Part shown: piece after piece, positions 5,877-22,915 of the stretch
Layout: each line of letters opens with the position of its first letter
Numbering within the stretch: position 1 is the first letter of the stretch
Assembly: GCA_030616165.1 (NCBI GenBank)
Contig: JAUWXV010000024.1
Coordinates: 1-26,887, forward strand
Reading direction: 5' to 3'
Source: a bacterium
Lineage (GTDB): Bacteria > SM23-31 > JAUVVT01
DNA: 26,887 nt
The notes under the pieces: model-generated
What the model was told of the DNA's origin: nothing
The model's input: the letters and a program-made list of their open reading frames with translations, nothing else
Databases searched by the model: none
Translations under genes and position numbers: made by a program

Positions 5877-6548
5877 TTATTTATTTTCAAATGATTTCTC
5901 GATTTGACCGTCTCTCAAATAAATTATACGGTCGGCATACTGGTCTGCCACCATTCCATGGGTTACGACGATTACAGTACCCCCACCGCGGTGAAACTCC
6001 GACAGATATCCGATAATCTGACCAGCGTTTTCAGGGTCGAGATTGCCAGTGGGCTCATCCGCTAGGATAATTCTTGGTTGGTTGAGCAACGCCCTCGCTA
6101 TGGCTGTGCGCTGTTTCTCCCCGGCGCTGAGCTCAGAAGGTTTGTGGTAATCCCGTTCCGACAAATTTAAACGTTCTAGTAATTTCCTTGCATCTGTTCG
6201 TCCAGGCCAATTTTTCCCCACACCAACAGGCAAGAGTACATTTTCAATGATATTTAAATAAGGCACAAGATGAAACAATTGAAAGATAAACCCGATATTC
6301 TCTGCTCTGAACTTTGCTCTCTCCTGCTTGCTCGTCGCATATATATCTCTCCCATTTGCGATAACCTTCCCTTCCGTTGGGCGGAGCATTCCTCCGATGG
6401 AAAGCAAAAGTGTTGTTTTCCCGCTCCCACTTGGTCCGCGTACGACAGCGAACTCGTTCTCTTTAATATGAAGGCTCACTTCATCAAGGGCTTTGACGTT
6501 GCCACGTCTGGTACGATATATCTTACTTACTTTTTCAAGGCGGACCAT
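5877..6548 (-). CDS. ABC transporter ATP-binding protein, MacB/LolD type
   Basis: This 223-residue ABC ATPase powers the permease encoded just upstream. Visible motifs are Walker [10 protein letters not shown], a Q-loop in [12 protein letters not shown], the signature LSAGEKQR, Walker [13 protein letters not shown] and the H-loop VTHG, all typical of the LolD/MacB/FtsE class that works with FtsX-like permeases. The frame is open upstream to 6626, but the ATG at 6548 is preferred: it has GAGG/AGGA just upstream inside the end of the permease gene, it follows the permease TAA by 2 bases, and the protein then begins with the family-like [11 protein letters not shown]. The paralogue at 18238 starts in the same way and with the same 2-base gap. 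The two ATPases look roughly half identical by eye. Transported substrate unknown. Confidence 0.95.
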
Positions 6549-6550
6549 GT

Positions 6551-7702
6551 TTATTCCTCCCTCAGTGTGATTGCCGGATCCTGAGTTATAGCTATCATCG
6601 CTGGAATGAAAAATGAAAGTGCACAAACTGCCGGGGAAGCAATAAGCGACCAGTAAAGTAATTCAATTGTAGGCTTTATAGTATTGGCAGTGACCTTGAA
6701 TATGTCAGGCCCAAACTTTAGAGCCAGGCCTGTCCCGATGCCGAAGCCCACAACGGCTCCAACCAATGCAATTGCAACTGCCTTACCGAGAAAAAGCAGT
6801 GCGATTTTGCCGGAACCATATCCAAGTGCCCGCATTATGCCTATCTCCTGTCGTCTTTCCTGGACGTTCATTATTGCTAAAACTCCTATCCATACCATGC
6901 ACACGACTAACACAATGGGCATTATAAACCCGAAATATTCTTCAGTCATCAATCTTTGATTTTCGCGGGCTGATGCGATGGATTGCATCAAAATCACTTT
7001 TGCATCAGGAAGAAATCTTGCAAGTTGTTCCCGAAGTAATGTAACAGAATTAATGTTTTCACCATTCACGAAACATAAACACTGCAGTGCTTTTATTTCA
7101 TTAATCTTATTTTCCATATTCATTATGTTCTGTACATCGTGGAGATGAGCATAGATGCGGATGTCATCTTCACTTCCGCTCTCTGATAGACACTGTGCGA
7201 TGGTGAATGGTTTGTCAAATATATCAATTACATCACCATTTTTAAGTCCCAAGTTACGCACTAGTTCAAATCCGATATAAACAGTTCCTCGCTCAATCGA
7301 GAAAACCATTGGGGGCTTCTGCATTCCAGGCGGGGACACCTCCGGTGCAATACCGGTCAAAATGACTTCAATACCTCGCCAGCTCACTTTCTTTTGGAGC
7401 ATAGCAGTCAGGTGTGCATAGGAAAGACCCTCATGAGAGGCGAAATCATAAACATAGTTCTCCGGCATTGTATATTCTGAGAAACCTGTCGCCCAAAACT
7501 TTTCCATATCGGTCTCTATGGGAATGATGCGCAGATTAAACCCTATGTCTCTCATCAGCCGAGTAGTCTCACGCTTAGAGGCTTCACCTGCTGTAAAAAA
7601 AGAAACAAATAATGCCACTGCCGTAACAATCGCCAGCAAACTGAAAATAAAATTCTGTTTTCTATGCATTATCTCTCGGATGATAAGATATAAAATTTTC
7701 AT
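6551..7702 (-). CDS. FtsX/MacB-type ABC permease with C-x36-C-x-C periplasmic motif
   Basis: The 383-residue protein has the MacB/FtsX layout: one membrane helix near 17-38, a large extracytoplasmic domain (about 40-255), then three helices (about 258-280, 303-328, 346-372). The C-terminal part contains the FtsX-type cytoplasmic stretch ERRQEIGIMRALGYG (282-296). The periplasmic domain holds C171, C208 and C210, with C208-L-C210 forming a C-x-C. The paralogue at 16955 has cysteines at the same spacing, and both share a GSxDDI block after the first cysteine. The start overlaps the upstream gene's stop by 4 bases and the ATPase follows 2 bases after the stop, so the three are translationally coupled. 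No membrane-fusion (MacA-like) gene is nearby; the thioredoxin-like protein occupies that place. Confidence 0.92.
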   Translation of the reverse strand: MKILYLIIREIMHRKQNFIFSLLAIVTAVALFVSFFTAGEASKRETTRLMRDIGFNLRIIPIETDMEKFWATGFSEYTMPENYVYDFASHEGLSYAHLTAMLQKKVSWRGIEVILTGIAPEVSPPGMQKPPMVFSIERGTVYIGFELVRNLGLKNGDVIDIFDKPFTIAQCLSESGSEDDIRIYAHLHDVQNIMNMENKINEIKALQCLCFVNGENINSVTLLREQLARFLPDAKVILMQSIASARENQRLMTEEYFGFIMPIVLVVCMVWIGVLAIMNVQERRQEIGIMRALGYGSGKIALLFLGKAVAIALVGAVVGFGIGTGLALKFGPDIFKVTANTIKPTIELLYWSLIASPAVCALSFFIPAMIAITQDPAITLREE

Positions 7703-8919
7703 GATATCTTTCCCCGCGACCTTAGCAGAATAAATAGACCTCCTGCAAAAATCAGTAAAACTATAATACTCGTTATAGTTAATGTCATTTTTAAGTTTAA
7801 ACCTGACTTGGGAGTGGCTGCCCCTGTCGAAGAAAGTTCACGAAGTTGAGCCGGGGATACCCTTCCTATGGCCGACTCCCTTTCATACTCTAAAACATCT
7901 TCTCTATATTCATCGAGTTCGTTTCCCGAACTCCTTATATTTCCATTATCCTCCATCCTTATGGAGCGATTCATAGACATAATACTACTTATTTCCATCT
8001 TTACCATTGGACTTTCAGCATCGAAGCCGAGATATTTCAACACATCTGATTGCATTTTCTCTCCCCACCTGTGAGGGATCAATGTACCTCTCGTCAATCT
8101 TGCGTCAAGTCCGCAGTCGCAAGATAAACCGATCACATAAAGAATATTAAATAGTACGCTTTCAGTAATTTGCTCTCCTTCGAGAAGAGGACCAATCCTC
8201 CGTCCTCTTCCATAGAGCACTGCCACACACGGCTCGGTTACTTCATTCTCATTCACGTCGAGACTCCATAGCAATATCGTCTCATGAGAGACCAATTCCC
8301 GAGGTATCACAATTATATAAGGAGGCTCATCGATGTGTTTTGGCAGCTGACTCATCATACCGGCTATCTTCTGGGTTGCAACGTCAACTGCCTCGTGCAC
8401 CCTTTTATTTTCAGCTGCATCCTCCCCTTCTACCAAAAGGACCACGCAGTATGCCTTGACAATGTGCTCTAAAATCTCTTCCCTTTTGGGGGAAGAGACA
8501 ACGTTCTCCAGGGAAGACCAAACTGTTTCCTTGAAAGGCTTGTTTGGAACCGAAATTGGCAGAATAAATGACCGCCCCTCTGGCGAAACCAAAATTGCGG
8601 AGGGGAATGATTGTATTTCCCAGAAATGGAAATATTCCATAGCCGGGTGGTTATTATTTTGTTCAACATTGATTATTTCAAACTCAACGTTGGTGTCCAT
8701 AAAGGTAGTATATGATATTTGTTTAAACGTGGAAGTAAGTTTTTCAGGTGTATCATCTCGGATAAAGCAGTAAATGCGGTACTGAGTAGGCAAAATAGTG
8801 ACGAAACCCGCATCACGAACGCTATACTCGCAGCAGAACGCCTCAGAAAAGTAAAAACTACATAATATGAAAATCACTAAAGTCCTTCTAATTCTCATCA
8901 CAATCACAGTCAATCTCAT
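7699..8919 (-). CDS. Exported single-pass protein with thioredoxin-fold-like domains and C-x-C
   Basis: The 406-residue protein has a signal peptide (to about residue 28), an extracytoplasmic body and a C-terminal helix (about 378-398) followed by RSRGK, so it is probably a type I membrane protein. Residues 45-125 resemble a thioredoxin fold: a beta strand, the INVEQ block, then SFPSAILVSPEGR with a likely cis-proline, but the CXXC active site is missing. Residues 155-275 may be a second such domain, ending in YGRGRR (236-241) and C267-D-C269. The paralogue at 15721 shares the mature N-terminal Cys, the GRGR motif, the C-x-C and the C-terminal anchor. It is first in the transporter operon and overlaps the permease by 4 bases. 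A start at 8898 (MRIRR...) would also give a good signal peptide; neither start has a clear Shine-Dalgarno. Function unknown. Confidence 0.8.
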   Translation of the reverse strand: MRLTVIVMRIRRTLVIFILCSFYFSEAFCCEYSVRDAGFVTILPTQYRIYCFIRDDTPEKLTSTFKQISYTTFMDTNVEFEIINVEQNNNHPAMEYFHFWEIQSFPSAILVSPEGRSFILPISVPNKPFKETVWSSLENVVSSPKREEILEHIVKAYCVVLLVEGEDAAENKRVHEAVDVATQKIAGMMSQLPKHIDEPPYIIVIPRELVSHETILLWSLDVNENEVTEPCVAVLYGRGRRIGPLLEGEQITESVLFNILYVIGLSCDCGLDARLTRGTLIPHRWGEKMQSDVLKYLGFDAESPMVKMEISSIMSMNRSIRMEDNGNIRSSGNELDEYREDVLEYERESAIGRVSPAQLRELSSTGAATPKSGLNLKMTLTITSIIVLLIFAGGLFILLRSRGKIS

Positions 8920-9240
8920 GAACTTTTTAAGTATATCTATTTTAATTCAAGTTTGACAAGTAAATTTGTAATTATTAGTAAAAATAATAATATATAAAAA
9001 TGTGTTGTCACTATACTGTTATTTATATTATTGTTTTTTGGCAATTCATGAAATAATGAAAATTATCTGAATATTTTTTATTACTGTTGATAAAGATAGT
9101 ATTGTGGGCGTATTATTTGAACACTATCTCATTATAGATGTACTTTTTTATTTCTTCAAGAATAAGGGATACCAGTATTTAGTTAAAACCTCTGCATTAC
9201 AATGTATTGTTATTGATGCAGGAATCTTGATATCTTTCAT
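8920..9240. other. AT-rich spacer between two minus-strand genes
   Basis: There is no supported gene in these 321 bases. The sequence is strongly AT-rich. Downstream of the 1025-residue gene, on the minus strand, CTGCAT and ATGCAG (about 9195-9222) could pair across a loop of about 20 bases, but no T-tract follows. The gap is long enough that the gene at 12318 and the cassette starting at 8919 may be separate transcripts. Confidence 0.5.
8930..8959 (-). promoter_or_regulatory. Possible sigma70-like promoter for the minus-strand cassette
   Basis: On the minus strand TTGTCA (8959-8954) is followed after 18 bases by TATACT (8935-8930). Initiation would fall only a few bases before the ATG at 8919, making the transcript nearly leaderless, which would agree with the absence of a Shine-Dalgarno. 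The region is very AT-rich, so chance matches are likely. Confidence 0.3.
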
Positions 9241-12200
9241 TTAGTTTCTTTGACCAAAGCAAAGAACATTACCATTTTCAAGTGTTACTATGGTACGGCC
9301 ATCGTGGTCTACAGCCATGCCCCAGGGAACCGGGGATGCGGGTAGCGGTTGTGCCCACAGTATCCTGCCATCCTGAAGATTCATGGCAACAATTTCAGCT
9401 TTTTTGGCAACTACCACGGCATTTTTGCACAAAGCTAAAGCGACGCTTTCCTCGCAGTCTCGCTCCCACAATGGTTTGTTGTAAATATCGAGTTTTCCCC
9501 ATGATGGGATTACATAATGCCCGGGATATTTACGTTCGAATACACTGTTGTTTAATAACTTCTTATCGATGGGAGTATAACATCTGATTATTTTATTGTC
9601 TATCCAAAGAATATCTCTTTCCCCCGTTGAAGTGTGTAATGCCTTTTCAAAGACAGTATCATCGATGACCGGGTAATCTGGGTCGCCATAGAAGGGTTGA
9701 CCGCCAACTACAACCTTATCTCCAATCAGATAAAGCTCCCAGCCGCGCAGAGATATAGATTCGCAGATGTTGAGGAGGTCCCCATTGTTAAGGCATTTAC
9801 CATCTGTGATATCATAGACTGCTGGCGAAACGGCGTTGCCGCCTGCCAAGTAGAGCTTTCCATCGTTAAGAAGCAGATGACCTTGCACGCTTACTCCGGT
9901 TCGGGCTTCAGCATTCAGATGACCAGAGGTATTATTCTGCCATTTGATTTTACCTGTTTCGGCATCAAGTGCATAGACGTGGATGCCGTCATAATTCGTG
10001 ATACCAGCCGCAATATATGCAATTCCGTTTTCTACAAGCACTCCACTTGCAGCAGGCCATGTGGAGAGTAATGCACCATAAACAGGTATCTTGCGTTCCT
10101 CAGGGGCTGCTCTAAAGCGCCATAGTAATTGTCCGGTCCGAGCTTCGAGAGAATAAACCCACCCATCGCCAGAACCTACTAGAACGCGACCATTCCATAC
10201 TGTCGGGGAGATGCGAACCCCGCCCCCAGTATAGAATATCCATTGCTGCTCTCCTGTCTCAGCATCCAAAGCCCGTACAATGCCATTCGAGCCACTGAGG
10301 AAAACCATACCTCCAGCTGTAACAGGGGCTGTTGGAGTGAATTTATTCTTTGGAGTAAACTGCCAAAGCCGATCGCATTTTTCAAAAATTATAGATTCGG
10401 TCTTTGCACTGCCTGTATTATTTCCACGAAATGTAGGCCAGTCAGCTGGTGACTCAGAAATGGCTGTAACCGCAGTAAAATCTATTGCATACTTTTCCAA
10501 TCGTTCCGCTTCAGTTGCCTGGGCGCTGAAGTTGAAGTCTCCCGCTGGGCCTAGACAGGTTGCCCCATAAAGAGTAAGCTGGCAATCACACACTGAAGGC
10601 CACCAGTAAAGAAGACCGTTGGCAATAGTTACACCGTCGTGACAGGAAGGACGCATTGGTGAAACATACTGAGGCCGGGAACTAGCCAAATCGAAGCGTA
10701 CCGTCCCACCATTTGCGCGTAAGAAAATAGCATCTGCAGAACCCGTTGGCCTAGTGCAAGCCCTGCGACCTATATCGAACTCTTCTAAAACCCTGCCAGT
10801 GAGGGGATCAAACTTTTTACTGACATTGTTTCCCCACGGGCCACTGATGCCATAAAGCGCATCATCTCCTAAGACCAACTGGAAATTGTTGTAAGGGTGA
10901 TGCCACATGACACTGCCGTCTTTGGCAGAAAGGGCAATCAGCTTGTCCATCATAGGACCTGAAAAATACAATGCCTTGTCACTACACTTGAGATATGCTG
11001 TAGTTCGCCAATTGGTTTGCCAACCCTGTCGATTCAAATTTGTACCTAGTTCTTTAAATACTTCCGGATCATTTTCTTTTGTCCTCTTCCATACTATCTT
11101 GCCGCTTTTCGCATTCAGACAGGTGAGGTACGCTCCAAATCGAAATAAATAAATTTGCCCGTTTTTCATACATACGGCACGGCTGTCTATAGGCTCATCT
11201 TCATGATAGTTCCATATGACCTTTTTTGTTTTCAGGTCAATTGCCAGAACGTTTCTCCCAAAACCCCAAGGATTCTCAGAGAGATTAAACCCTTTCGACA
11301 GAGGATTCCATGGCCAGCCATGTCCGGAATTGCTTCTACGCACTTCCGGGTCCTTCATCTCCTGCTCTCCTATAAGAGCATAGAGCATATCGTTTTCCAA
11401 TGCCATCCATTTCCAAAACGTTCCTCCAGCGATATCTTCCGGTGGGGAGATCTGGTCTTTTAATTCCCCTGTCGCTGCATCAATGAGTTTGCATGATTTA
11501 TCATCCCCGACATAGAGTATCGTGGGCGTCGCAATCATTGTATTGCGGTGAACCATAATTCCTGGAACTAAGTCACGCTTCCAAAGCATTGTGCCATTGT
11601 ATCCATTGTACGCCACAAGTGTATTGGCAAAAGCCTCTTCACGGGGTTTGAAAGCAATATGTCCCAATGCCCTGAACACACGGCCTGCAGAAGCCACTGT
11701 CATCTGAGGTATTGGTGCATAATGTGGACCAGCCAAGAATTGAGTCAGATACGGTGCTAAGGCGATTTTGTCTTTCGATTGCGGGTTGTTATCAGGTTCG
11801 TGATACGGATGGCTCCAATCGTCCACTCCCTTTGGAAAAGGTTTAATATATTTAATCTGCCCTACCAGAGCTTTTCCCTGTGGACACAAAACCCTGAGCG
11901 CCTCGGCTTTGGAAATTGTTGTTGCTTCCCCTTCAGCAATAAGAGCGTCCGCTATATTGTCAGCAAGATGAATTTTTGTCAGTGGTCCTTTTCCAACAAA
12001 GATACGTGTTCCATAGTACCCGGCTTCATCTATATTTCGACGAGCCGTTTCAACATCTTCATTTCGTTGCAACTGGACATAAATAGTAAGCTCGCTTTTC
12101 TTTGCTAATTCAATAGCTCTCTTGCCTTTAACATCCCCCAGTAACAAACAGATACCACGCGAAATACCAATTTCGTTAAGAATGGCTTTTGTACTTCTCA

Positions 12201-12318
12201 TATTATTGTTCCCACATTTTAAAATGGTTCCAGCCATAAAAATTGTCATAAATGACAATGCTAACGTCTTAACAAATCTTTTCCTTCCATTCTTACTAAA
12301 ATCTATTCTTGTAAACAT
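9241..12318 (-). CDS. Giant exported protein: methyltransferase-like fold plus two propellers, permuted order
   Basis: The 1025-residue protein begins with a signal peptide or anchor (about 12-32). Residues 45-160 align with the methyltransferase-like domain of the other giants, but motif I has decayed to LGDVKG (60-65). DDWSHPY (166-172) leads into the cysteine-bearing propeller (about 175-595) with C521, C559, C577 and C579. ADWPTFRGNN (625-634) then starts a propeller of the other type (about 625-1025), with blade motifs LDAETGEQQW and LDAETGKIKW. The order MT-P2-P1 is a domain-level permutation of P1-MT-P2 seen in the 1570- and 1268-residue proteins. It lacks the malectin-like and TPR tails. 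AGGAG lies 6 bases before the ATG, supporting the start. No transporter gene is directly attached; it sits between the two cassettes. Confidence 0.88.
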   Translation of the reverse strand: MFTRIDFSKNGRKRFVKTLALSFMTIFMAGTILKCGNNNMRSTKAILNEIGISRGICLLLGDVKGKRAIELAKKSELTIYVQLQRNEDVETARRNIDEAGYYGTRIFVGKGPLTKIHLADNIADALIAEGEATTISKAEALRVLCPQGKALVGQIKYIKPFPKGVDDWSHPYHEPDNNPQSKDKIALAPYLTQFLAGPHYAPIPQMTVASAGRVFRALGHIAFKPREEAFANTLVAYNGYNGTMLWKRDLVPGIMVHRNTMIATPTILYVGDDKSCKLIDAATGELKDQISPPEDIAGGTFWKWMALENDMLYALIGEQEMKDPEVRRSNSGHGWPWNPLSKGFNLSENPWGFGRNVLAIDLKTKKVIWNYHEDEPIDSRAVCMKNGQIYLFRFGAYLTCLNAKSGKIVWKRTKENDPEVFKELGTNLNRQGWQTNWRTTAYLKCSDKALYFSGPMMDKLIALSAKDGSVMWHHPYNNFQLVLGDDALYGISGPWGNNVSKKFDPLTGRVLEEFDIGRRACTRPTGSADAIFLRANGGTVRFDLASSRPQYVSPMRPSCHDGVTIANGLLYWWPSVCDCQLTLYGATCLGPAGDFNFSAQATEAERLEKYAIDFTAVTAISESPADWPTFRGNNTGSAKTESIIFEKCDRLWQFTPKNKFTPTAPVTAGGMVFLSGSNGIVRALDAETGEQQWIFYTGGGVRISPTVWNGRVLVGSGDGWVYSLEARTGQLLWRFRAAPEERKIPVYGALLSTWPAASGVLVENGIAYIAAGITNYDGIHVYALDAETGKIKWQNNTSGHLNAEARTGVSVQGHLLLNDGKLYLAGGNAVSPAVYDITDGKCLNNGDLLNICESISLRGWELYLIGDKVVVGGQPFYGDPDYPVIDDTVFEKALHTSTGERDILWIDNKIIRCYTPIDKKLLNNSVFERKYPGHYVIPSWGKLDIYNKPLWERDCEESVALALCKNAVVVAKKAEIVAMNLQDGRILWAQPLPASPVPWGMAVDHDGRTIVTLENGNVLCFGQRN

Positions 12319-12582
12319 TTTTTACTCCTGTTTATAAATTAAGTGTTCAATATTACTCTTGAGCAATCAGCAAACTGAACTTCGTCCTCTTTATTTTGTA
12401 CTCATACTTTAGAATGAATATCAGCAACAGGACTCTAACAAAAGAATTGGGGGACTGTTATAAAAACCACTCGTTTCCAAGTAGTCTTCCTGCTCTCTTG
12501 TGCAGTATCTCCATATTGCATCGCCAACTCCATCTCACTATCAATTTATTATTGACCTGGAAATCATTATTACAGAAGAACG

Positions 12583-12613
12583 CCTTTCGCCGAAAGTTGC
12601 CTCGTTGGGCAAC
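12583..12613. repeat. Two abutting hairpins
   Basis: CTTTC-GCC-GAAAG is followed immediately by GTTGCC-TCGTTG-GGCAAC. They lack a T-tract on either side, so a terminator role is not supported. They could be a small structured RNA element or the remnant of a mobile element end. Confidence 0.4.
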
Positions 12614-12824
12614 ATGATGTAAAGATTGGGTACGACAACTCGTATTATTCGAGACAGGCTTGGATTATAAAAATCTCACGATAAATAATCAATAATTAAA
12701 TATAATTATTCTCGGAATTGTAGTTAATTTTACGTCTCCAAAAGCTTTTTAAAGCTTTACACTGAATATTAAGATATAAATTTGATTTTTACAAGTATTT
12801 TTTTATTTTTTTCGCCGAAATTCT

Positions 12825-13086
12825 GACTCCTCCTTAATTGTATTATCTGCTGTCTGATCCATTCTGCTCTACAACTTAAAACATCACCAATTAGCATAAT
12901 TGACACCGTTGGGCACCATTGCTGCTACAAATAGACACATTTATTTTTTTTATTTTTATTTCGCTTGAAAAATTAATTTTATACAAAAAGTAGCAAGAAT
13001 TTGCCAGGTAAAAAAAATACTTGATAAAATAAAATCTATATGTTAATATTTAATGCAAAATGTTCAAAATGTTTTAAAGACATACA
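12825..13086 (+). repeat. Diverged intergenic repeat, copy A, upstream of the URO-D gene
   Basis: Positions 12825-12872 resemble 14355-14402 (copy B), sharing TTAAT, ATTAT and GATCC blocks in the same order. The core AAAAGTAGCAAGAATTT (12986-13002) recurs in copy B (14438) and at 24970. Positions 13036-13086 resemble 23280-23329 (copy C) at about 80 percent by eye. GCTAC (12924-12928) and GTAGC (12990-12994) could pair. Copy A contains the URO-D promoter, so the family may be regulatory. Confidence 0.5.
13021..13049 (+). promoter_or_regulatory. Sigma70-like promoter for the URO-D gene
   Basis: TTGATA (13021-13026) and TAATAT (13044-13049) are separated by exactly 17 bases. Transcription would start near 13056, giving a leader of roughly 94 bases before the ATG at 13150. 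Confidence 0.65.
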
Positions 13087-13149
13087 TCAGGATTAGATTT
13101 TTCCGGCAGGAGCATTTTTTAAATTATATAATTTTTTAAAAGTGATAAA

Positions 13150-14250
13150 ATGGAAATACCGTTAAGGCATCCATCACCTAATTTCGAAGAGTTAGAAAAA
13201 GTAATCAAAGGAGAAAAAATTCCGGAAAGAGTTTACTTTACGGAATTGGTAATTGATGAGGAAGTTAAAAAACATATCACTGAAAATTTTTTAGGAAAAA
13301 GGTGGGTTCACTCCCTGCCAGAAAATAAGAAAGATTATTTGAACCAGGATATATATTTCTGGTATAAAATGGGCTATGATTATATAAGAGTTTCAGGAGG
13401 AGGAAAAGTAACATTGACCTGGACAAAAAAGAAAAGAAAAACAAAAGATACTGCTCCTCTTTCGAGAGGAAATAGAGAGTGGACTGAAGAAGGAAAGGGT
13501 TTAGTTTCTTCATGGAAAGAATTTGAAAAATATTTATGGCCAGTACCAGAAGGAATTGATTATTCCCCATACGAATATACTTCAAAAAATTTGCCCGATG
13601 GTATGAAAATGCTTGTATGCCCCTCAGATGGCATTTTTGAAACAGTCAGTAGTTCAATTTTAGGTTTTGAAAATTTGTGTTATCTTATCCATGATAATTT
13701 TGAACTGGTAAAAGCAACATTCAGCAAGGTTGGAGAGTTGCTATATAATTTTTATAAAAATATTGTCGAGTTGGAGAACGTTGGCGGTTTTTTTCAAGGA
13801 GATGATTTTGGGTATAAAACTTCAAGTCTTCTTTCTCCAAAACTTCTTAAAGAACTTGTTTTGCCATGGCATAAGAAATTTGCTGAAATTGCCCATAAGA
13901 ATAGTAAAATGTACTGGCTCCATTGCTGTGGAAATGTATTATCTTTAATGGATGATTTAATAGAGTACGTAAAAATAGATGCTTTTCATTCTTTTCAGGA
14001 TGTTATTATTCCTGTTGAGGAATTTATGAAAAGATATGGGAATAGAATTGCTGTATTGGGTGGAGCAGATATTGATAAACTTACCCGGCAAACTGAACCC
14101 GAATTGAGAAAATATATAAGAAGAATCTTAAATGAATGTATGCCAGGCAGATATGCTTTGGGCTCAGGAAATTCTATAGCTAATTATGTTCCACTGCATA
14201 ATTATTTTACAATATTAGATGAAGGCTTAAAATGGAAAATAATAGAATAA
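13150..14250 (+). CDS. URO-D family protein, likely MtaA/CmuA-like methyltransferase relative
   Basis: The 366-residue protein belongs to the uroporphyrinogen decarboxylase superfamily. Landmarks are GDDFGYKTSSLLSP (217-230), the strand ending in HCCGN (258-262), GGADID (304-309) and a C-terminal GSGNSIANYVP (338-348). H258 and C260, with C330 further on, match the His-x-Cys...Cys zinc pattern of corrinoid:thiol methyltransferases such as MtaA, so a methyl-transfer role is more likely than haem synthesis. No corrinoid protein, substrate-specific methyltransferase or haem gene is adjacent. Standalone URO-D-like proteins are common in PVC-type genomes, often without known substrate. It has its own promoter at 13021-13049 and a terminator after it, so it is monocistronic. 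No clear Shine-Dalgarno precedes the ATG, but no alternative start exists nearby. Confidence 0.85.
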   Translation: MEIPLRHPSPNFEELEKVIKGEKIPERVYFTELVIDEEVKKHITENFLGKRWVHSLPENKKDYLNQDIYFWYKMGYDYIRVSGGGKVTLTWTKKKRKTKDTAPLSRGNREWTEEGKGLVSSWKEFEKYLWPVPEGIDYSPYEYTSKNLPDGMKMLVCPSDGIFETVSSSILGFENLCYLIHDNFELVKATFSKVGELLYNFYKNIVELENVGGFFQGDDFGYKTSSLLSPKLLKELVLPWHKKFAEIAHKNSKMYWLHCCGNVLSLMDDLIEYVKIDAFHSFQDVIIPVEEFMKRYGNRIAVLGGADIDKLTRQTEPELRKYIRRILNECMPGRYALGSGNSIANYVPLHNYFTILDEGLKWKIIE

Positions 14251-14456: not shown

Positions 14457-14628
14457 AAATAATTTTCAGAGATTAATATTATTATCAATTTACTATATTA
14501 CTCAAATAAATGCTTGTTTTAACCACGAAAAATATCTATTTTAAACTATGATTCAACAGAATTACAGTTATATGCTCATATAAAGTGGATATAGTGAATA
14601 TCAGATTAAGTCTTGTTTCATCAATAGA

Positions 14629-15325
14629 ATGAAAAGTAAAATTTTAGTATTTTCATATTTATTAATTATTTTAATTTCGCCATTATTCGCAGATAATAAA
14701 AATATTTCCGTTGAAACCGGATATGTATCAAGATATATCTGGCGTGGATTTGACATGATTCCTGATAATTATGATGCTATACAGCCTTCCATCACATATA
14801 CATTTGGGGGGAACCGGTTTTTGGATAAATTTCTTTAGTTCATTCGGAATAAAAGAAAGGACTAATACAAAATTTGCAGACGAACTGGATTGTTCTATCG
14901 GTTGCGATAAAATGATATTCAAAAGATCAGTAACTGTTTCAATAGGTCTTGCCTATTATACGTTTCAGCATCTTGAAGGTAAAAACACCACTCCTGAGAT
15001 TTTTGCAAACTTTATATTTTTAAAATCACAATATTCTCCGATAATCACTGTCTATTACGATATGAATATGGGAGATGGATTTTATATATTGAGTTCAATT
15101 TCACGAACAATAGAACCTTTACCACTCTCTTTTGGCATATCTCTGGGTTACAATAATAATCAATACATAGAAGATTCAGGTATCAGTGATATAATATTTT
15201 CTTCTTCGTATGAATTAACCATTAGTCAAGTGACATTAACTCCTACTATTTACTATGCATACATTCCAATGGATGAAGTTAACAATGAAAATGAGTTTTG
15301 GACAAGTATAAAAATAACGTTTTAA
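14629..15325 (+). pseudogene. Outer-membrane beta-barrel (putative porin), frameshifted
   Basis: Two overlapping frames together encode one protein of about 231 residues. The first frame (14629-14838) has a signal peptide ending near SPLFA and the N-terminal strand motif VSRYIWRGFD, typical of small putative porins of the TorF/Gcw_chp type. It then stops. The second frame continues from the same point with alternating barrel strands (VTVSIGLAYYTF, LSFGISLGYN) and ends in the aromatic ITF. The break is at a run of six G (14806-14811); five G would join the frames as TFGGTGFWIN. It could be a sequencing or assembly error, a phase-variable switch or a recent inactivation. No strong ribosome site is seen at 14629. 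The beta-barrel call is fairly firm, the family less so. Confidence 0.75.
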
Positions 15326-15450
15326 TTAACATATGTTCTTTTTTGTAATTTTTATAAAAAAATTTGACTGTAGTTAAGCACTTTTTTAATGAGAAAATAA
15401 AAAAAGTTCCTTAATTTTTATATTTATATAATTTTTAAAAATATGCTAAC

Positions 15451-15554
15451 GGACAGAACGCTGCCTGCACACTGTGCCTGCACTTTGTGTTCTGTCCCTA
15501 CATAATAATCATTTGTGATTAAATATATTGTAGGGACAGGACATTGTCCTGTCC
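15451..15554. repeat. Nested palindromic repeat built on GGACAG/CTGTCC
   Basis: Three interleaved inverted repeats are exact: GGACAGAAC (15451-15459) with GTTCTGTCC (15489-15497); TGTCCCTACA (15493-15502) with TGTAGGGACA (15529-15538); and GGACAGGAC (15534-15542) with GTCCTGTCC (15546-15554). A direct repeat GCCTGCAC occurs at 15463 and 15476. The block is far more GC-rich than its surroundings, which suggests an inserted small palindromic element. Confidence 0.65.
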
Positions 15555-15631
15555 TTCTGTTCTTATTATTTCTCTATTTCAAGAAATATCAAGAAAATAT
15601 ATATCATTTATTATTTAATAAGAACTAATTA

Positions 15632-15660
15632 TTGTATTCTGATGCTAAAAAATGAATAAT
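15632..15660 (+). promoter_or_regulatory. Possible promoter of the plus-strand cassette
   Basis: TTGTAT (15632-15637) and AATAAT (15655-15660) are 17 bases apart. The -35 box matches only half of the consensus, and AT-rich sequence makes chance hits likely. Confidence 0.3.
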
Positions 15661-15720
15661 AAACATTACTAAAATGTATCAATAATATTGGTAAATGTAA
15701 ATGGAGATAAGTATAGTAAA

Positions 15721-16854
15721 ATGAGAAAGTTAGGTTTATTTATTATTTTATGCTGTCTTTTTCTATTTTCAAATTCTGGTTTAGCCTGTAATGTGCCGGT
15801 ATTCCGATATGCCCTTGAACGATGGCCTGCCGAAAACTATGAAGTATTCATATTTCATCACGGACCTCTATCTGCTGAGGATAAATTAATTATCAACTGG
15901 CTTAAAGAATCTTCAAACAGCAAAATCCCATATTCGAATTATAACGTACATACTTTTGATTTATCTACAAGATTGGAAGGATATATCCGGGATATTTGGG
16001 ATTCGCTGGATTCACCAGAACTGCCATGTATGGCTGTTTTTTACCCAAACAGCTTTTTGTACGGGGAAAATATCTGGTATGGAGGTCTAACGGCAAAAGA
16101 TGCAAAAGAATTAATTAAATCTCCTGTACGCACGGAAATTGCAAGGAGAATTCTCAATGGAGAATCTGCTGTCTGGATATTTCTTGAAAGTGGAGACACG
16201 GAAAAAGATAACGCTGCTGCTGATATACTTCAAACTCAACTGAAAAGATTGGAAAATTCATTGAAACTGCCAATAATTTCAAGTGATGATATTTTTAATG
16301 ATTTTGTGAATATAAACGAAAACGGGCCGGAACTGCATGTTGTTTTTTCAATGATACGTCTTTCACGGTCAGATCCTGCTGAATCTTATTTTATCAACAT
16401 GTTGATGAAAAGCGAACCAGATCTTTTTGAATATATTTCATATCCTATGGCATTCCCTGTTTATGGAAGAGGAAGGGTTCTTTACACACTAATTGGTAAT
16501 GGTATCAACGAGAGGGTTATTCAAAAAGCTTGCGAATTTATTATTGGGCCATGTTCCTGTATAATCAAGGCTCAAAATCCGGGTGTCGATCTTTTAATGA
16601 TGACCAATTGGGAGGCATCACTTCAAGGGCGGTGGGTAGAAAATGTTGAATTTCCTACTCTAACCGGTCTTTCAGAATTGGCTTCTATAACAGCCGGGAA
16701 AGAAGTTCCCGAAACGGATATTGAAAAGATGGAAGTTGATGAATTGCCGAATCAACTGGCACGAAATATAATACTTATATTTGTAATCATTATTGCGGCT
16801 ATTATAATTTTAAGTTTAAACATAAAAAGATTTTACAATAAAGAGAATTTATAA
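15721..16854 (+). CDS. Exported single-pass protein with thioredoxin-fold-like domain and C-x-C, cassette 2
   Basis: The 377-residue protein is the paralogue of the 406-residue protein at 7699-8919. A signal peptide (1-22, ending SGLA) leaves a mature N-terminal Cys followed by NVPVFRYALERW. Residues 38-115 are thioredoxin-like with a probable cis-proline in ELPCMAVFYP and no CXXC. Residues 148-280 may be a second such domain, with YGRGR (248-252) and C278-S-C280. A membrane helix (about 349-367) precedes KRFYNK at the C-terminus. The frame is open from a TTG at 15688, but the ATG at 15721 begins directly with MRKLGLF and is chosen; GGAG lies 14 bases upstream, a long spacing. The permease gene follows after 100 bases. 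LAC is not a canonical lipobox because leucine is at -2 rather than -3. Function unknown. Confidence 0.8.
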   Translation: MRKLGLFIILCCLFLFSNSGLACNVPVFRYALERWPAENYEVFIFHHGPLSAEDKLIINWLKESSNSKIPYSNYNVHTFDLSTRLEGYIRDIWDSLDSPELPCMAVFYPNSFLYGENIWYGGLTAKDAKELIKSPVRTEIARRILNGESAVWIFLESGDTEKDNAAADILQTQLKRLENSLKLPIISSDDIFNDFVNINENGPELHVVFSMIRLSRSDPAESYFINMLMKSEPDLFEYISYPMAFPVYGRGRVLYTLIGNGINERVIQKACEFIIGPCSCIIKAQNPGVDLLMMTNWEASLQGRWVENVEFPTLTGLSELASITAGKEVPETDIEKMEVDELPNQLARNIILIFVIIIAAIIILSLNIKRFYNKENL

Positions 16855-16954
16855 GCTGCAGAACGCTAATAGCCGGGAGCTATTTATCTGCGTAATCCGT
16901 GGTTCATATTTTTATTAATAATATAGGAGTGAAACTTTTTTCATTGGAGAAACA

Positions 16955-18235
16955 ATGACCCTCTGGCAACTTGTTATTAAAGAAAGTAGATATCAAAGGC
17001 TGTCATTCTGCCTCGGTATTCTTGCAGTTATTGTAGCCGTCGGAGTTCTTGTTGCAGTACTGACCATTTTAAGGAGTCACGATCTGCAAACTCAAAAAAT
17101 TCTTGCATTAAAAGAAGAAGAGATGGAAAAAGAAATGTCTATTATGGAAGACGACTACCGGAAGATCATGAAGATATTGGGATTCAACCTGCTAATTCTG
17201 CCTGAAGGTCAGCAGCTTAGTGATTTTTACGCAGAAGGATATGCGACAAAAGATATGCCCGAAGAGTATGTTGAGAGGCTTTCTGCTTCCAATATTATGA
17301 CGATAAGGCATCTCTTACCAAGTATTGAGCAAAAAATAAGGTGGCCTGAGCAGAGAATGAGGACTATCATACTTATCGGAACGCGCGGTGAGGTGCCTTT
17401 TACAAAACGTGACCCCATGGAACCTATCCTTGTTGCGGTGCCACCTGAAAATATAGTTTTAGGTTATGAATTATGGAAAAGCCTGAATCTGAAAGTTGGT
17501 GATAAAATCAAGCTTTTAGGTAAGGATTTTAAGGTCAGTGAATGTCATCCGCAACGCGGAAGCAAAGACGATATTACTGCATGGATCGACTTGAAACAGG
17601 CACAGGAACTAGTTGGCAAGCAGGGGAAAATTAATGCGATTCTGGCATTGAAATGTCATTGTCTGGGTAATGAAATTGAAAACGTCAGAAAGGATATCAA
17701 AAATGTTTTACCAAATACTCAGGTCATCGAACTTGCAAGTAGAGTAATTACCCGGGCGGAAGCACGAGACAGAGCAAAGGAAACTGCTGAGTTTGTGCTG
17801 GTCAGCGAAAAAAATTACAGAATCAAACTCCGCAATGAAATAGAAGAGTTCGCCGCATGGTTTGTCCCGCTGATAATTCTGGGTTGTATTGTGTGGATTG
17901 GATTTCTCGCTTTTAACAATGTACGGGAACGAAAAGCAGAGATTGGAATTCTTAGTGCTCTCGGGTTGCGGTCAAAACAGATTCTTTTTGTTTTTTTGGC
18001 TAAAGCCGTATTACTTGGTATTTTTGGAGCTTTGATTGGTTGTATAGCCGGATTTATAGTGGGACTTGCCTCGGGAGAAACTGTTTTCAATTTTGAAACT
18101 GTAAGAACACTTTTTAATCCATTTTTGTTTTTGGTGGTAATGTTAACTGCGCCGATATTAGCTGGTGTTGCGAGTTGGATTCCAGCTCTGATAGCTGCTA
18201 AACAGGATCCAGCCGATATTCTCAGGAACGAATAA
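16955..18235 (+). CDS. FtsX/MacB-type ABC permease, cassette 2
   Basis: The 426-residue protein has a first membrane helix near 17-38, an extracytoplasmic domain to about residue 298, then three helices (about 301-322, 344-371, 389-412). The FtsX-type stretch ERKAEIGILSALGLRS lies between helices 2 and 3. C197, C234 and C236 (C-H-C) reproduce the cysteine spacing of the paralogue at 6551-7702 exactly, and GSKDDI (202-207) matches GSEDDI there. It is longer because of an acidic/basic helical stretch (44-70) and another near 265-296. TTGGAGAAACA precedes the ATG, a good ribosome site. The ATPase gene begins 2 bases after the stop. The 100-base gap before it holds a small hairpin, AATAGC/GCTATT (16868-16884), without a T-tract. 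Confidence 0.92.
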   Translation: MTLWQLVIKESRYQRLSFCLGILAVIVAVGVLVAVLTILRSHDLQTQKILALKEEEMEKEMSIMEDDYRKIMKILGFNLLILPEGQQLSDFYAEGYATKDMPEEYVERLSASNIMTIRHLLPSIEQKIRWPEQRMRTIILIGTRGEVPFTKRDPMEPILVAVPPENIVLGYELWKSLNLKVGDKIKLLGKDFKVSECHPQRGSKDDITAWIDLKQAQELVGKQGKINAILALKCHCLGNEIENVRKDIKNVLPNTQVIELASRVITRAEARDRAKETAEFVLVSEKNYRIKLRNEIEEFAAWFVPLIILGCIVWIGFLAFNNVRERKAEIGILSALGLRSKQILFVFLAKAVLLGIFGALIGCIAGFIVGLASGETVFNFETVRTLFNPFLFLVVMLTAPILAGVASWIPALIAAKQDPADILRNE

Positions 18236-18237
18236 TT

Positions 18238-18891
18238 ATGCTTTTTATCAAAAACCTAAGTAAGGTTTTTAAGGGTCCGAAAGGGATTGTTCAGGCGCTC
18301 GAGAGCGTTTCATTGAGTGTTAAAGCAAGTGAATTTGTGGCTGTGCAGGGACCAAGCGGTTCTGGTAAAACTACATTACTTCTCTCAGTGGGAGGGCTGC
18401 TTGTTCCATCCGATGGGGAAGTAACTGTTGATAATCAGAATCCATATCTAATGTCTCCTGATAATAGAGCCCACTTTCGTGCTTCAACTATTGGTTTTGC
18501 TTTCCAGCAATTTTATTTAGTTCCATACCTTAGTGTTCTGGATAATGTTCTTGTTCCTTCTCTTGCTTTTCCTCAATCAATCGCAATAGACCGAGCCAAA
18601 GAACTTATCAACCGTTTTAACCTGACAGACCGCATTGGTCATGTTCCTGGAGAACTCAGCACTGGCGAGCGCCAACGTACTGCTATGGCAAGAGCTCTCT
18701 TAAACAATCCAAAGCTTTTACTCGCGGACGAACCTGTTGGTAATCTGGATAATGAAAATGCCAATATTGTGCTTAGCGTTTTGGAAGAATTTGCCAGCTC
18801 AAGCGGAGCAGTTCTCATGGTTACACACGACAACCGCGCAGCAAAATATGCTCACAAAACTTTACAACTAAAAAATGGAAAATTATTATAA
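18238..18891 (+). CDS. ABC transporter ATP-binding protein, cassette 2
   Basis: The 217-residue ATPase pairs with the preceding permease. It has Walker [11 protein letters not shown]-loop FAFQQFYLVPYL, signature LSTGERQR, Walker B LLLADEPVGNLD and H-loop VTHD. It belongs to the LolD/MacB/FtsE group. It starts 2 bases after the permease stop, the same spacing as in the minus-strand cassette, with its ribosome site inside the permease end. No nucleotide-binding residue is missing. Confidence 0.95.
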   Translation: MLFIKNLSKVFKGPKGIVQALESVSLSVKASEFVAVQGPSGSGKTTLLLSVGGLLVPSDGEVTVDNQNPYLMSPDNRAHFRASTIGFAFQQFYLVPYLSVLDNVLVPSLAFPQSIAIDRAKELINRFNLTDRIGHVPGELSTGERQRTAMARALLNNPKLLLADEPVGNLDNENANIVLSVLEEFASSSGAVLMVTHDNRAAKYAHKTLQLKNGKLL

Positions 18892-19108
18892 ATTTTATGA
18901 ATTAAATACTAAGGAAGATGTAAGAATATACATCATGGATAACAACGATTTTCACATGTTTTGTGTATATAAAACGATTTAATTAAAATTGAGAAAATTT
19001 AAAGTTTTGACAATAATTTAAACTTTGAAACTAAATAAGTTTTTTAAAAATTTGTTTAGTTACATTTAGAAACGTTAATGCAACTGCTAATGTTAGGGAG
19101 AAATTGTT
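18892..19108 (+). promoter_or_regulatory. Spacer before the second propeller gene, with possible promoter
   Basis: This 217-base gap contrasts with 18 bases at the same place in cassette 1. TTGACA (19007-19012) is followed after 19 bases by TAAATA (19032-19037). The spacing is long, so the promoter is tentative, but a separate promoter for the propeller gene is plausible. No terminator is visible. Confidence 0.35.
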
Positions 19109-22100
19109 ATGTTCGTCTGTTGGAATAATTTGAAAAAATACTTTTTCAGCACATTCATTTTTTGTTTGACTTTTAACTGGTTTCTTCATATTCAAGATGT
19201 AACGGGTTCCGACTGGCCCATGTGGCGATATGATGCTGGGCGCACTGCTGCATCTCCTGTTGAACTTCCAGAACAACTGTATCTCCAATGGGTACTTCAA
19301 TATCCAAAGCGTACTATGGTATGGGATGATCCACTAAATCATGACTTAATGCCATATGACAGAGTTTTTGAACCGGTTGTAATGGGTAAGACTATGTTTA
19401 TCGGTTTTAACGACTTTGATAAAATAACAGCAATTGATACTGAAACTGGAGGAGAAAAATGGTCATTCTATGTAGACGGACCTGTACGTCTTCCTCCGGC
19501 TGCCTGGAATGGTAAGGTATATTTTACGAGTGATGATGGTTATCTTTATTGTGTAAGTGCCTTAAACGGAAAGCTGGTTTGGAAGTTTCGCGGAGGTCCT
19601 TCTGAGCAAAAAGTTCTTGGTAATAAACGCTTTATTTCCATGTGGCCAGCCCGTGGAGGTCCTGTCTTAAAAGACGGCACAGTCTATTTTACCGCCTCTA
19701 TCTGGCCCTTTATGGGAATCTTCATCTATGCGCTTGATGCGGAAACCGGAGAGGTTGTCTGGATAAATGACGGAACAGGTGCACAATATATGCTCCAGCC
19801 TCATAACTCTCCTTCTTTTGCAGGAGTTGCACCGCAGGGAGCACTTGCTGCAACAAAAAATAAACTGCTTATTCCGGGAGGTCGCAGTGTACCTGCATGC
19901 TTTGACCGGAACAGCGGAGAGTTTTTATACTACAAACTTTCTTCCAGCGGTAAAACCGGCGGATCCTTCGTCTGTACTACAAGTGGAGTATTTTTCAATC
20001 ACCACAGAGAAAAAGTAACAACTATGTATGGTCTTTCAGATGGAGATGCGATTGTAAAAAGAATAGGCAAACAACCGGTTCTGACTGAAGAAATATATTA
20101 CTTCTCAGGAAATTCAATAATTGCCATTGATGCTAAGAAGATTCAAAAAAATCCAAAAAAATTGAAAGAAAGCATTCTGTGGGAAGTTAAAGTCGATGCG
20201 TCTTACGATTTAATCAAGGCAGGAAATCACTTATATGCCTCAGGAAAACAAGGTATCACCGCAATAGATTTAATTGGTAGAAAAGAAAAACCGAATGTTT
20301 TATGGACAAAGAAGGTCGATGGACAAATAGAAAGGCTTATAGCTGCAGACGAAAAACTCTTTGCTGTAACACTCGATGGACGAATTATGGCTTTTGGAGC
20401 AAAAAAGACGACACCTGCAATAAACAAATATCAACTGGTTCTGACTGAAATTTCTGACCAAATTAACCAAAAGGCACGCTACGTTCTTGACCAGACAGGA
20501 GTAAAAGAGGGGTATGCCTTGTTGTATGGTATTAGCAGCGGGGATTTTTTAGAAGCTTTGCTGCGTAATTCAAATTTACATATCACTGCTGTTGATTCTG
20601 ACCCTTCGACTGTTGAAAAGATGAGACACCGGTTTAATATGTCTGAACATTATGGTAAACGCATTGCTGTTCACCATGGAGACCCATTTACATTCATTGT
20701 TCCACCTTATGTTGCATCTCTGACTATAATAGATGACCTTGAATCAGCAGGTTACCAATGCAGTAAAAATTTTCTAAAACGCATTTTTTACTCTATGCGC
20801 CCCTATGGTGGGAAACTCTGGCTGAATATTGAGAATGAGGAAAAAAGAGCGTTCTTGAAGATGGCTGAGGAAACCAAATTAGATGGTTTGCAGGATCTCT
20901 CTAAAGCAGGCATTACTATATTGTCTCGCGAAGGTCCCCTGCCGGGTTCAGCCGACTGGACTCACCAGTATGGAAACATCTCAAACACTACAAAATCGAA
21001 TGATAGTCTCGTCAAACTGCCCCTGGGGATAGCATGGTTTGGAGGAAACTCCAATCTTGATGTCCTCCCCAGGCATGGCCACGGACCTCCCGAACAAGTG
21101 ATAGGTGGAAGACTTTTTATTGAAGGAATGGACTGTATAAGTGCACGGGACGTTTATACCGGCCGCGTAATTTGGAAAACTAAACTGGATAATCTGGGGA
21201 ATTATGGCGTGTTTTTCGATGACACATATAAAGATGCTCCGACTGACCCGAGTTATAACCAGATACATATTCCCGGGGCAAATTCAAGGGGAACAAACTT
21301 TGTAGCCACACTTGACTATGTGTATGTTGTACAGGGAGGAGAATGCCACGTTCTTGATTCCGCAACGGGAAAAGTCGTAAAGATAATTTCACTGCCTGCT
21401 AAAGATAATGGAGAATTACCTCAATGGGGATATATTGGAGTTTATAAGGATTATCTTATTGCCGGCTCTGATTTTACAACATATTCTGAATTGGTTTCAA
21501 AAGATAGTACGTGGAAAGAATATTTATCAAAACTATCTTCAAGCGGACGCGTTTTTACCAATTTTGATAATTCCGCAAGTAAAGAACTGCTCGTTATGAA
21601 CCGCCATACTGGTAACATCCTCTGGCGCTATAATGCCAGGCATGGCTTTATTCACAATGCAATAGCCGTAGGAAGTGATAAAATATTCTGTCTGGATAAA
21701 ATCCCGCCTCTAATCGAAGAGCAATTGGAAAGACGGGGCTTATCACCTCCCGATACATACAGTCTGAAGACATTTGATATACGTACTGGAAAAATTATCT
21801 GGGAAAGTAATAAAGATATTTTTGGAACATGGCTGAGTTATTCAAAAGAATATGATATCCTACTTCAGGCATGTCGCCCTTCCAGCGACATGCTGAGGGG
21901 TGAAGAAGGTAATCGCATGATCACATACAAAGGACTGGATGGTACTGTATTATGGGATAAAAAAGAAAAATATAACACATTTCCAATACTGCATGGAGAT
22001 AAAATTATTACAGAAGGAAAAGTATCCAGCCTGTTGACAGGAGAACCATTATATAGAGATTCACCGCTAACGGGTAAAAAGGTTCCCTGGAATTGGCAGC

Positions 22101-22915
22101 GTCAATATGGCTGTAATTATCCTATTGCCAGCGAACATCTGATTACATTTCGGTCCGCTGCTGCCGGCTATTATGATTTTACCAATGACGGCGGTACCGG
22201 GAATTTAGGTGGTTTCAAATCAGGATGTACTTCTAATCTAATTGTTGCTGATGGTGTTTTGAATGCACCCGATTACACGCGGACGTGTCAGTGTTCTTAC
22301 CAGAACCAAACTTCACTGGCACTTATTCATATGCCTGATGTTGAAATGTGGACGTTCAATATTATTGATTTGGATGATGCTCCGGTCAAAAGGGTAGGTA
22401 TTAACTTCGGTGCACCCGGAGACCGTATGGCGAACAATGGAACACTCTGGTTAGATTACCCAAGTGTCGGTGGTCCATCACCGAATATTCAAATTGGTAT
22501 AACCCCTGAAGAGCCGGAATGGTTTCGCCATCATTCATCACGTATTGAAGGTGAAGAACTCAAATGGGTTGCGGCATCAGGTTGCAAAGGAATGAAGAAC
22601 ATAACAATAAGACTGGCAAAGAAATCAGAGAAAGAGCGCTCATATACAGTGCGTCTTCACTTTGCTGACCCGGAAGATTTACTGCCAAACAATCGTGTTT
22701 TTGACATTTCAATTCAGGGAAAGCAAGTATTGAAGAACTTGGATATTATAAAAGAAACGGGTGCTTCATATAAAACACTTGTGAAAGAATTTAAAAATAT
22801 TCTTATTAAGGATAACTTGAATGTTGAATTTAATCCGAGCGATATTTTGAATAAAAACGCTCCTATTATCAGCGGTATCGAGATTTTTGCTGAAGAAATT
22901 GACAAGTTGGAATGA
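19109..22915 (+). CDS. Giant exported propeller-methyltransferase-propeller-malectin protein, cassette 2
   Basis: The 1268-residue protein parallels the 1570-residue protein of cassette 1. A signal peptide or anchor (about 8-30) is followed by DWPMWRYDAGR and propeller 1 (about 35-430), with blade motif LDAETGEVVW (209-218). Residues 440-605 align with the methyltransferase domain, but motif I is YGISSG (473-478) and has lost the glycine pattern, so SAM binding is doubtful. SADWTHQY (614-621) opens propeller 2 (about 625-1080), with C1002, C1040, C1060 and C1062 at the conserved spacing. A malectin-like domain (about 1093-1265) has YTVRLHFADP and RVFDISIQGKQVLKNLDI. It lacks the coiled-coil insert and the TPR tail of its paralogue. 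GGGAG lies 8 bases before the ATG. Role unknown; probably periplasmic or surface-exposed. Confidence 0.9.
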   Translation: MFVCWNNLKKYFFSTFIFCLTFNWFLHIQDVTGSDWPMWRYDAGRTAASPVELPEQLYLQWVLQYPKRTMVWDDPLNHDLMPYDRVFEPVVMGKTMFIGFNDFDKITAIDTETGGEKWSFYVDGPVRLPPAAWNGKVYFTSDDGYLYCVSALNGKLVWKFRGGPSEQKVLGNKRFISMWPARGGPVLKDGTVYFTASIWPFMGIFIYALDAETGEVVWINDGTGAQYMLQPHNSPSFAGVAPQGALAATKNKLLIPGGRSVPACFDRNSGEFLYYKLSSSGKTGGSFVCTTSGVFFNHHREKVTTMYGLSDGDAIVKRIGKQPVLTEEIYYFSGNSIIAIDAKKIQKNPKKLKESILWEVKVDASYDLIKAGNHLYASGKQGITAIDLIGRKEKPNVLWTKKVDGQIERLIAADEKLFAVTLDGRIMAFGAKKTTPAINKYQLVLTEISDQINQKARYVLDQTGVKEGYALLYGISSGDFLEALLRNSNLHITAVDSDPSTVEKMRHRFNMSEHYGKRIAVHHGDPFTFIVPPYVASLTIIDDLESAGYQCSKNFLKRIFYSMRPYGGKLWLNIENEEKRAFLKMAEETKLDGLQDLSKAGITILSREGPLPGSADWTHQYGNISNTTKSNDSLVKLPLGIAWFGGNSNLDVLPRHGHGPPEQVIGGRLFIEGMDCISARDVYTGRVIWKTKLDNLGNYGVFFDDTYKDAPTDPSYNQIHIPGANSRGTNFVATLDYVYVVQGGECHVLDSATGKVVKIISLPAKDNGELPQWGYIGVYKDYLIAGSDFTTYSELVSKDSTWKEYLSKLSSSGRVFTNFDNSASKELLVMNRHTGNILWRYNARHGFIHNAIAVGSDKIFCLDKIPPLIEEQLERRGLSPPDTYSLKTFDIRTGKIIWESNKDIFGTWLSYSKEYDILLQACRPSSDMLRGEEGNRMITYKGLDGTVLWDKKEKYNTFPILHGDKIITEGKVSSLLTGEPLYRDSPLTGKKVPWNWQRQYGCNYPIASEHLITFRSAAAGYYDFTNDGGTGNLGGFKSGCTSNLIVADGVLNAPDYTRTCQCSYQNQTSLALIHMPDVEMWTFNIIDLDDAPVKRVGINFGAPGDRMANNGTLWLDYPSVGGPSPNIQIGITPEEPEWFRHHSSRIEGEELKWVAASGCKGMKNITIRLAKKSEKERSYTVRLHFADPEDLLPNNRVFDISIQGKQVLKNLDIIKETGASYKTLVKEFKNILIKDNLNVEFNPSDILNKNAPIISGIEIFAEEIDKLE

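Follow-up and report, generated by a model that had tools for sequence, protein, structure and literature searches.

The locus studied here raises two questions: how two similar sets of genes for membrane and exported proteins came to lie side by side in one genome, and what the products of such a set do together. The window, a single contig of 26,887 nucleotides, comes from a draft genome of 3.74 Mb in 343 contigs that is 90% complete; another genome of this class bears the label candidate division KSB1. Cassette 1 lies on the minus strand and cassette 2 on the plus strand, and the two diverge, facing away from each other. Reading rightwards, cassette 2 encodes a thioredoxin-like (Trx-like) anchor (15721..16854, ATG at 15721), an FtsX/MacB-class permease (16955..18235), a LolD/MacB-class ABC ATPase (18238..18891) and a giant exported protein (19109..22915). 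Reading leftwards from 12318, cassette 1 encodes a permuted giant exported propeller protein (9241..12318), a Trx-like anchor (7699..8919, likely start at 8898), an FtsX/MacB-class permease (6551..7702) whose gene shares 4 bases with the Trx-like gene, a LolD/MacB-class ABC ATPase (5877..6548, ATG at 6548), a further giant exported protein (1146..5858) and perhaps a methyltransferase (196..1062), which has an intact SAM motif and a signal-like N-terminus and is assigned to the cassette from its position only. The initial annotation of this DNA had reported one gene order occurring twice on opposite strands, with 2 bases between the permease and ATPase genes of each copy, and the order, the coordinates and both gaps are confirmed. 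Its description of a four-gene set does not hold, since cassette 1 has at least five genes: the permuted propeller gene had been left out, and the methyltransferase is a possible sixth. Between the cassettes there are a URO-D family protein, standing alone at 13150-14250 on the plus strand, and one protein without assigned function. A glucuronoyl-esterase-like exported protein (PF22244; 23414-24808, minus strand) lies downstream of cassette 2.

The class of the transporter can be assigned from its sequence matches. The permeases of both cassettes match PF02687 at E values of 1.4e-16 and 4.5e-17, a PDB search with the permease profile hits MacB and LolC/E chains, and LolD is the best-scoring named model for the cassette ATPase (3.4e-61). 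By these criteria the permease and ATPase classify as a type VII (MacB-fold) ABC transporter, the group that includes MacAB-TolC, LolCDE, FtsEX-EnvC and YbbAP-TesA (PMC5985334; PMC12646458). The cassettes share with these systems an FtsX-core permease and a LolD/FtsE-class ATPase. They differ from them in a CxC motif in the permease ectodomain, in a linked anchor with tandem thioredoxin folds and a linked propeller, and in the Mod/Moa genes that relatives add, while MacA-, EnvC- and TesA-like proteins are absent among the window genes. Two readings follow the nearest named families. In the first, the transporter would extract or sort the propeller as a lipoprotein, in the manner of Lol. The ranking of LolD, the presence of lolCE among the top permease models and a cysteine that closes the hydrophobic N-terminal segment of several cassette 1 propellers agree with it; however, no lipobox is seen in the cassette 2 propeller and most of those of PVC bacteria, whose signal peptides look ordinary, the scores of all members fall well short of the LolCDE equivalog cut-offs (LolD 206.6 against 307.75 bits, lolCE 58.3 against 362.45 bits), and neither the CxC motifs nor the Mod/Moa genes would be explained, so that we regard Lol-like release as very unlikely. 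In the second, a MacB-like pump would provide efflux of, or resistance to, a toxic thiophile, and the propeller would be a surface protein associated with it. Although the permease and ATPase are of MacB class, their genes are separate in the cassettes, no MacA-like adaptor is found in the window, and an exporter needs no importer and sulfur carrier in the same operon, and we consider such a pump very unlikely too.

The anchor that precedes the transporter genes is predicted to be an exported protein held at the membrane. In cassette 1 it shows a signal peptide, a cysteine at 8830-8832, two thioredoxin folds, a CxC at 8113-8121 and a C-terminal membrane helix; the corresponding cysteine and CxC of cassette 2 lie at 15787-15789 and 16552-16560. 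The AlphaFold model (mean pLDDT 80.4) contains two thioredoxin folds, the CxC, a disordered linker and the membrane helix; each half aligns with thioredoxin folds at Z about 9 over 85-100 residues, and Foldseek matches the protein to ERp57 bb' with probability 1.00. Thus, the name Trx-like given in the initial annotation is right as to the fold, but the CxxC active site is not conserved: the family alignment shows no conserved CxxC at the thioredoxin active-site position, which sets the family apart from the thioredoxin/DsbA oxidoreductases, and invariant cysteines occur instead where the signal peptide ends and in the CxC. A profile of the family finds no match among PDB sequences. Two consecutive thioredoxin folds are also the feature of PDI bb', ERp44 and archaeal PDO, from which the Trx-like protein differs by its N-terminal cysteine, by the CxC after the second fold and by its C-terminal membrane anchor. 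This likeness could suggest a thiol-disulfide machine, in which the Trx-like protein and the permease act as an ATP-driven disulfide reductase or isomerase that corrects the Cys-containing exported propellers. The CxC is a possible dithiol motif and the putative clients carry several invariant cysteines; against this stand the missing CxxC and the oxyanion importer, MoaD-MoeB pair and Cys-bearing binding protein described below, which such a machine leaves unexplained. We consider the disulfide reading unlikely, though deserving of some weight.

The giant exported proteins have an unusual architecture. Those of cassettes 1 and 2 consist of propeller A, a methyltransferase-like (MT-like) domain, propeller B (with a CxC at 2310-2318 and 22286-22294, respectively) and a malectin domain, and the 9241-12318 protein is a permuted member of this propeller family, with the MT-like domain followed by propeller B (CxC 10582-10590) and propeller A. 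Permuted propeller genes also adjoin Trx-like genes in L050, L063 and L076 and lie downstream of the ATPase gene in L061, while in L074 propeller A is encoded by its own gene. In the AlphaFold model of the permuted protein (pLDDT 79.5, with the CxC loop under 50), propeller B resembles Rv3035 (Z 29.3, rmsd 2.9, 337 aligned residues) and propeller A resembles YxaL (Z 29.0, rmsd 3.2, 316 aligned residues) and also BamB. The likeness to BamB, YxaL, Rv3035 and tetrathionate hydrolase lies in the propeller fold, whereas the joining of two propellers via an MT-like domain, the invariant Cys set and the frequent malectin domain distinguish the present family. The propellers score 33.5-77.5 bits with the PQQ-dependent dehydrogenase model (TIGR03075), for which the cut-off is 480. 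Some members, P0002 among them, retain the glycine-rich SAM motif of the MT-like domain, and many have lost it. Because of this frequent loss, and because the proteins carry export signals, a structural role is probable for the domain in many members, and an exported catalytic methyltransferase is not supported.

What the exported parts have in common is the CxC motif, which is nearly invariant across the permease, the Trx-like protein and the propeller. In the permease ectodomain, where it lies at 7073-7081 in cassette 1 and at 17654-17662 in cassette 2, it occupies one alignment position in 36/36 proteins of a first set and in 75/76 of a larger one, and the family also has an invariant His, H97 in P0004. 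The one permease that departs from this CxC pattern belongs to a tandem pair (L119:6870-9406); it has lost the second Cys of the motif while its neighbour retains both. In the Trx-like proteins the CxC is found at one position in 83 of 86 and the cysteine at the signal peptide end in 81 of 85, and in propeller B the CxC occurs in 37/37, in two registers and together with further invariant cysteines. By comparison, any CxC is present in only 2 of 25 other FtsX-like permease frames of the window's phylum. Three Trx-like proteins lack the CxC (L132, L133 and L138); no permease lies near them, nor is one found in their genomes (G211, G205 and G167). The motif can equally be a redox motif as a ligand-holding one. 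Its sharing by permease, anchor and propeller across at least 8 phyla provides a testable handle on giant propellers that are functionally uncharacterised.

That these parts work as one system, as had been proposed from the two cassettes, is supported by linkage, by co-occurrence in genomes and by co-divergence. A permease scan of named genomes finds relatives in Verrucomicrobiota, Planctomycetota, Armatimonadota, Poribacteria, KSB1, Aminicenantes, Zipacnadia and Hydrogenedentota, as well as one in a MAG labelled Bacteroides, and the core set is present in at least 8 phyla. The Trx-like profile detects the anchor in 19/193 Verrucomicrobiota and 35/195 Planctomycetota genomes. We ran the linkage check suggested in the initial annotation with the Trx-like gene as query, using 60 loci drawn evenly from these two phyla and profile searches of stop-to-stop frames for the neighbouring genes. 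Within 10 kb, a permease is found in 39/60 loci, permease and ATPase together in 36/60, a propeller in 24/60 and a permease or propeller in 49/60; all four parts occur together in 13 of the loci, and 8 contain no other gene that was searched for. At the level of genomes, the permease family (E below 1e-70, G293 showing partial matches only) is present in 45 of 54 Trx-positive genomes and in none of 26 Trx-negative genomes, which are a chosen subset of the negatives (Fisher p 9e-14). The propeller is the loosest member of the set; 36/60 loci are without one in the neighbourhood, and it may not be the only client, or may not be the client at all. Universal linkage of permease and Trx-like gene is ruled out by a Planctomycete subclade (L052, L053, L059, L060, L067, L068, L069 and L079) that has the CxC permease without an adjacent ATPase or Trx-like gene; in the three genomes tested (those of L052, L059 and L068), a Trx-like gene is found at another site, next to an ATPase gene. 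An MFS-like transporter gene is located upstream of the subclade permease in L052, L059, L067, L068 and L069.

How the two cassettes came together is answered by comparing their components. The initial annotation had them as a duplicated cassette with four paralogous pairs. Relatedness far beyond chance is evident for the permeases (E 9e-59), the ATPases (E 6e-69) and the propellers (E 4e-176), but the Trx-like proteins hardly match directly (E 0.007) and are joined only via the family profile; this profile was built by way of intermediate sequences, with both proteins among its seeds, and gives them 433 and 314 bits. Their CxC, GRxR and other columns do align, and the Trx-like protein of cassette 2 has an orthologue at 76% in the sister genome G002. 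FastTree trees were built for the 56 cassettes in which permease, Trx-like protein and ATPase are all present. In all three, cassette 1 clusters with Aminicenantes/KSB1, with Aminicenantes L057 as its closest neighbour, while the closest neighbour of cassette 2 is the sister genome G002 (L046), followed by PVC members. The distance between cassettes 1 and 2 equals that of the median pair of all cassettes for permease and ATPase and is larger for the Trx-like protein. As judged from these trees, a local duplication of one cassette is ruled out; the cassettes group apart in every component tree, which argues that they moved as units and that the genome carries two anciently separate versions of one gene set brought together, rather than a recent duplicate. 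The components also co-diverge: their distance matrices correlate (permease-Trx 0.85, permease-ATPase 0.77, Trx-ATPase 0.64) well above the Mantel permutation null maximum of 0.21, although shared organismal descent explains part of this co-divergence. Of the initial annotation as a whole, the two cassettes are confirmed and the single system is supported, whereas the duplication, the four genes and the catalytic methyltransferase are not supported; the shared CxC motif and the relatives' ModABC/MoaD/MoeB genes are additions to it.

These latter genes form a second conserved block near the cassettes of relatives, found via neighbour clustering, with examples identified by Pfam and NCBIfam. The block comprises a tandem ModA-like binding protein, a ModB/WtpB-like permease, a ModC/WtpC-like ATPase, a MoaD/SAMP1-like ubiquitin fold and a MoeB-like E1. 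In the Planctomycetota and Verrucomicrobiota sample, some block gene lies within 10 kb in 37/60 Trx loci, the ModA-like gene in 34/60, all three Mod genes in 30/60 and MoaD with MoeB in 19/60, while by our own estimate a given single locus would fall by chance in a random 20 kb of a 6 Mb genome in about 0.3% of cases. The block is often contiguous and co-stranded with the cassette, as in L139, L143, L147, L159 and L163. The ModA-like examples score 107 and 105 bits with TIGR01256 (cut-off 62.5), and the ModB- and ModC-like genes score below the cut-offs of their own models; by family match the ModA-like protein belongs to the molybdate/tungstate importers, with Mo/W as its putative substrate. 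The tandem protein has three conserved cysteines, two of them in domain 2 in 38/38 sequences, and one of the three replaces, by our reading of the motif, the oxyanion-binding Ser of ModA. Thus, the binding protein, permease, ATPase, ubiquitin-like protein and E1 of the relatives match the ModABC/WtpABC and MoaD-MoeB families, and what sets them apart is the tandem binding protein with invariant second-domain cysteines, the extra MoaD and the operon shared with the CxC cassette. In L126:8337-9455, L127:10517-11635 and L128:8300-9415 a second MoeB-like gene with a rhodanese-like tail is located directly upstream of the Trx-like gene.

The simplest use of such a block would be as an accessory locus for ordinary pyranopterin Mo/W enzymes, in which ModABC, MoaD and MoeB serve the usual synthesis of the cofactor, while the ABC, Trx-like and propeller proteins have some other task. 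In agreement with it, MoaC is present in 31/40 and MoaE in 26/40 cassette genomes. However, a canonical-looking MoaD stands beside MoaE, away from the cassette, in all 12 genomes checked, so that the cassette MoaD is an extra copy, which speaks against simple Moco supply. Eight of the 40 cassette genomes have neither MoaC nor MoaE, though these are drafts in which absence is no proof; in three of the eight (G053, G134 and G163) ModABC-like genes nevertheless lie at the cassette, where MoaD or MoeB was not found. AOR (PF01314) is absent from 24/34 cassette genomes, the window's own included, on which ground a role as accessory to AOR/tungsten oxidoreductases is rejected. We therefore hold the pyranopterin reading to be rather improbable. 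The block is also not universal. The window's own genome contains one MoaC and no tandem ModA-like gene, AOR or MoaE, and the tandem ModA-like gene was not found in the Aminicenantes and KSB1 genomes tested, so universal dependence on a ModABC-like importer is ruled out and the Mo/W link is drawn from relatives.

Taken together, the reading that we tentatively prefer, while giving it somewhat less than an even chance, is that of a periplasmic maturation machine in which a type VII ABC engine drives the CxC hand-over of a thiophilic ligand to the propeller. For permeases of this class it is established that ATP hydrolysis moves the ectodomain, and the cassette ATPase and FtsX-class permease would form such an engine, cytoplasmic hydrolysis being converted into movement of the permease ectodomain. 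The Trx-fold anchor and the ectodomain would each present a CxC that holds and passes on the ligand, for which a metal or metal-sulfur group is the likeliest candidate, and the client would be the exported double-propeller protein, whose propeller B brings invariant cysteines and a CxC of its own. The linked oxyanion importer of ModABC-like type and the dedicated MoaD-MoeB sulfur carrier may supply the precursors of the ligand in many PVC relatives, and this linkage suggests a sulfur-ligated Mo/W-type centre. Complex formation, ligand hand-over, the client role and the identity of the ligand are what we infer here; the observations that count for them are the linkage, co-occurrence and co-divergence of the parts, the conserved CxC compared with the 2/25 control, the Mod/Moa linkage and the extra MoaD, to which may be added the occurrence of CxC-less Trx-like proteins without permease, the cysteines of the tandem binding protein, the MacB/LolCE class of the permease and the Mod genes at cassettes of genomes without detectable MoaC and MoaE. 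Several points weigh against the maturation machine: the window's own genome has neither a tandem ModA-like gene nor MoaE, so that not every member has the oxyanion and sulfur parts; 36/60 Trx loci have no propeller within 10 kb; the CxC can as well be a redox motif; and a match to a ModA-like family does not establish Mo or W as the substrate.

A functional analogy is offered by NosDFY-NosL, which delivers copper to the propeller enzyme N2O reductase and likewise combines a dedicated ABC complex and a metal chaperone for an exported propeller enzyme. The analogy does not extend to membership: the permease class and the chaperone fold differ, and among the cassette proteins there is no NosD beta-helix, NosY-class permease or NosL match in Pfam/NCBIfam. 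The established tasks of type VII ABC engines are the sorting of lipoproteins, efflux, cell division and the extraction of lipids, and we know of none that acts via thiols or delivers a cofactor. The engine of the cassettes belongs to a known kind, and what appears new is its combination with a CxC anchor, a CxC propeller and oxyanion/sulfur genes. We found no description of this combination in the open-access literature searched, in agreement with the earlier remark that no characterised system was known to couple such a transporter to a giant exported propeller protein. The operons shared with oxyanion uptake and an extra MoaD-MoeB raise the question of whether these bacteria form a Mo/W-sulfur centre by a route distinct from the one known for molybdopterin. 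Since a shared operon with molybdate/tungstate-type uptake and sulfur-carrier genes is seen in many other bacteria, the gene set may build a metal-sulfur centre of an unrecognised type outside the cell membrane. We also speculate, with low confidence, on the full form of this idea, namely that dedicated oxyanion uptake and MoaD-MoeB make a molybdopterin-independent, sulfur-ligated centre (of Mo- or W-type in many members) and that the type VII ABC engine and CxC relay install it in exported propellers, the whole being built outside the cytoplasmic membrane. Elsewhere in the window's own genome, contig C92 (L014:1597-5550) carries NuoE/NuoF-like and ferredoxin-type genes; next to them stand genes for small PQQ-like propellers and a further LolD/FtsX-type pair.
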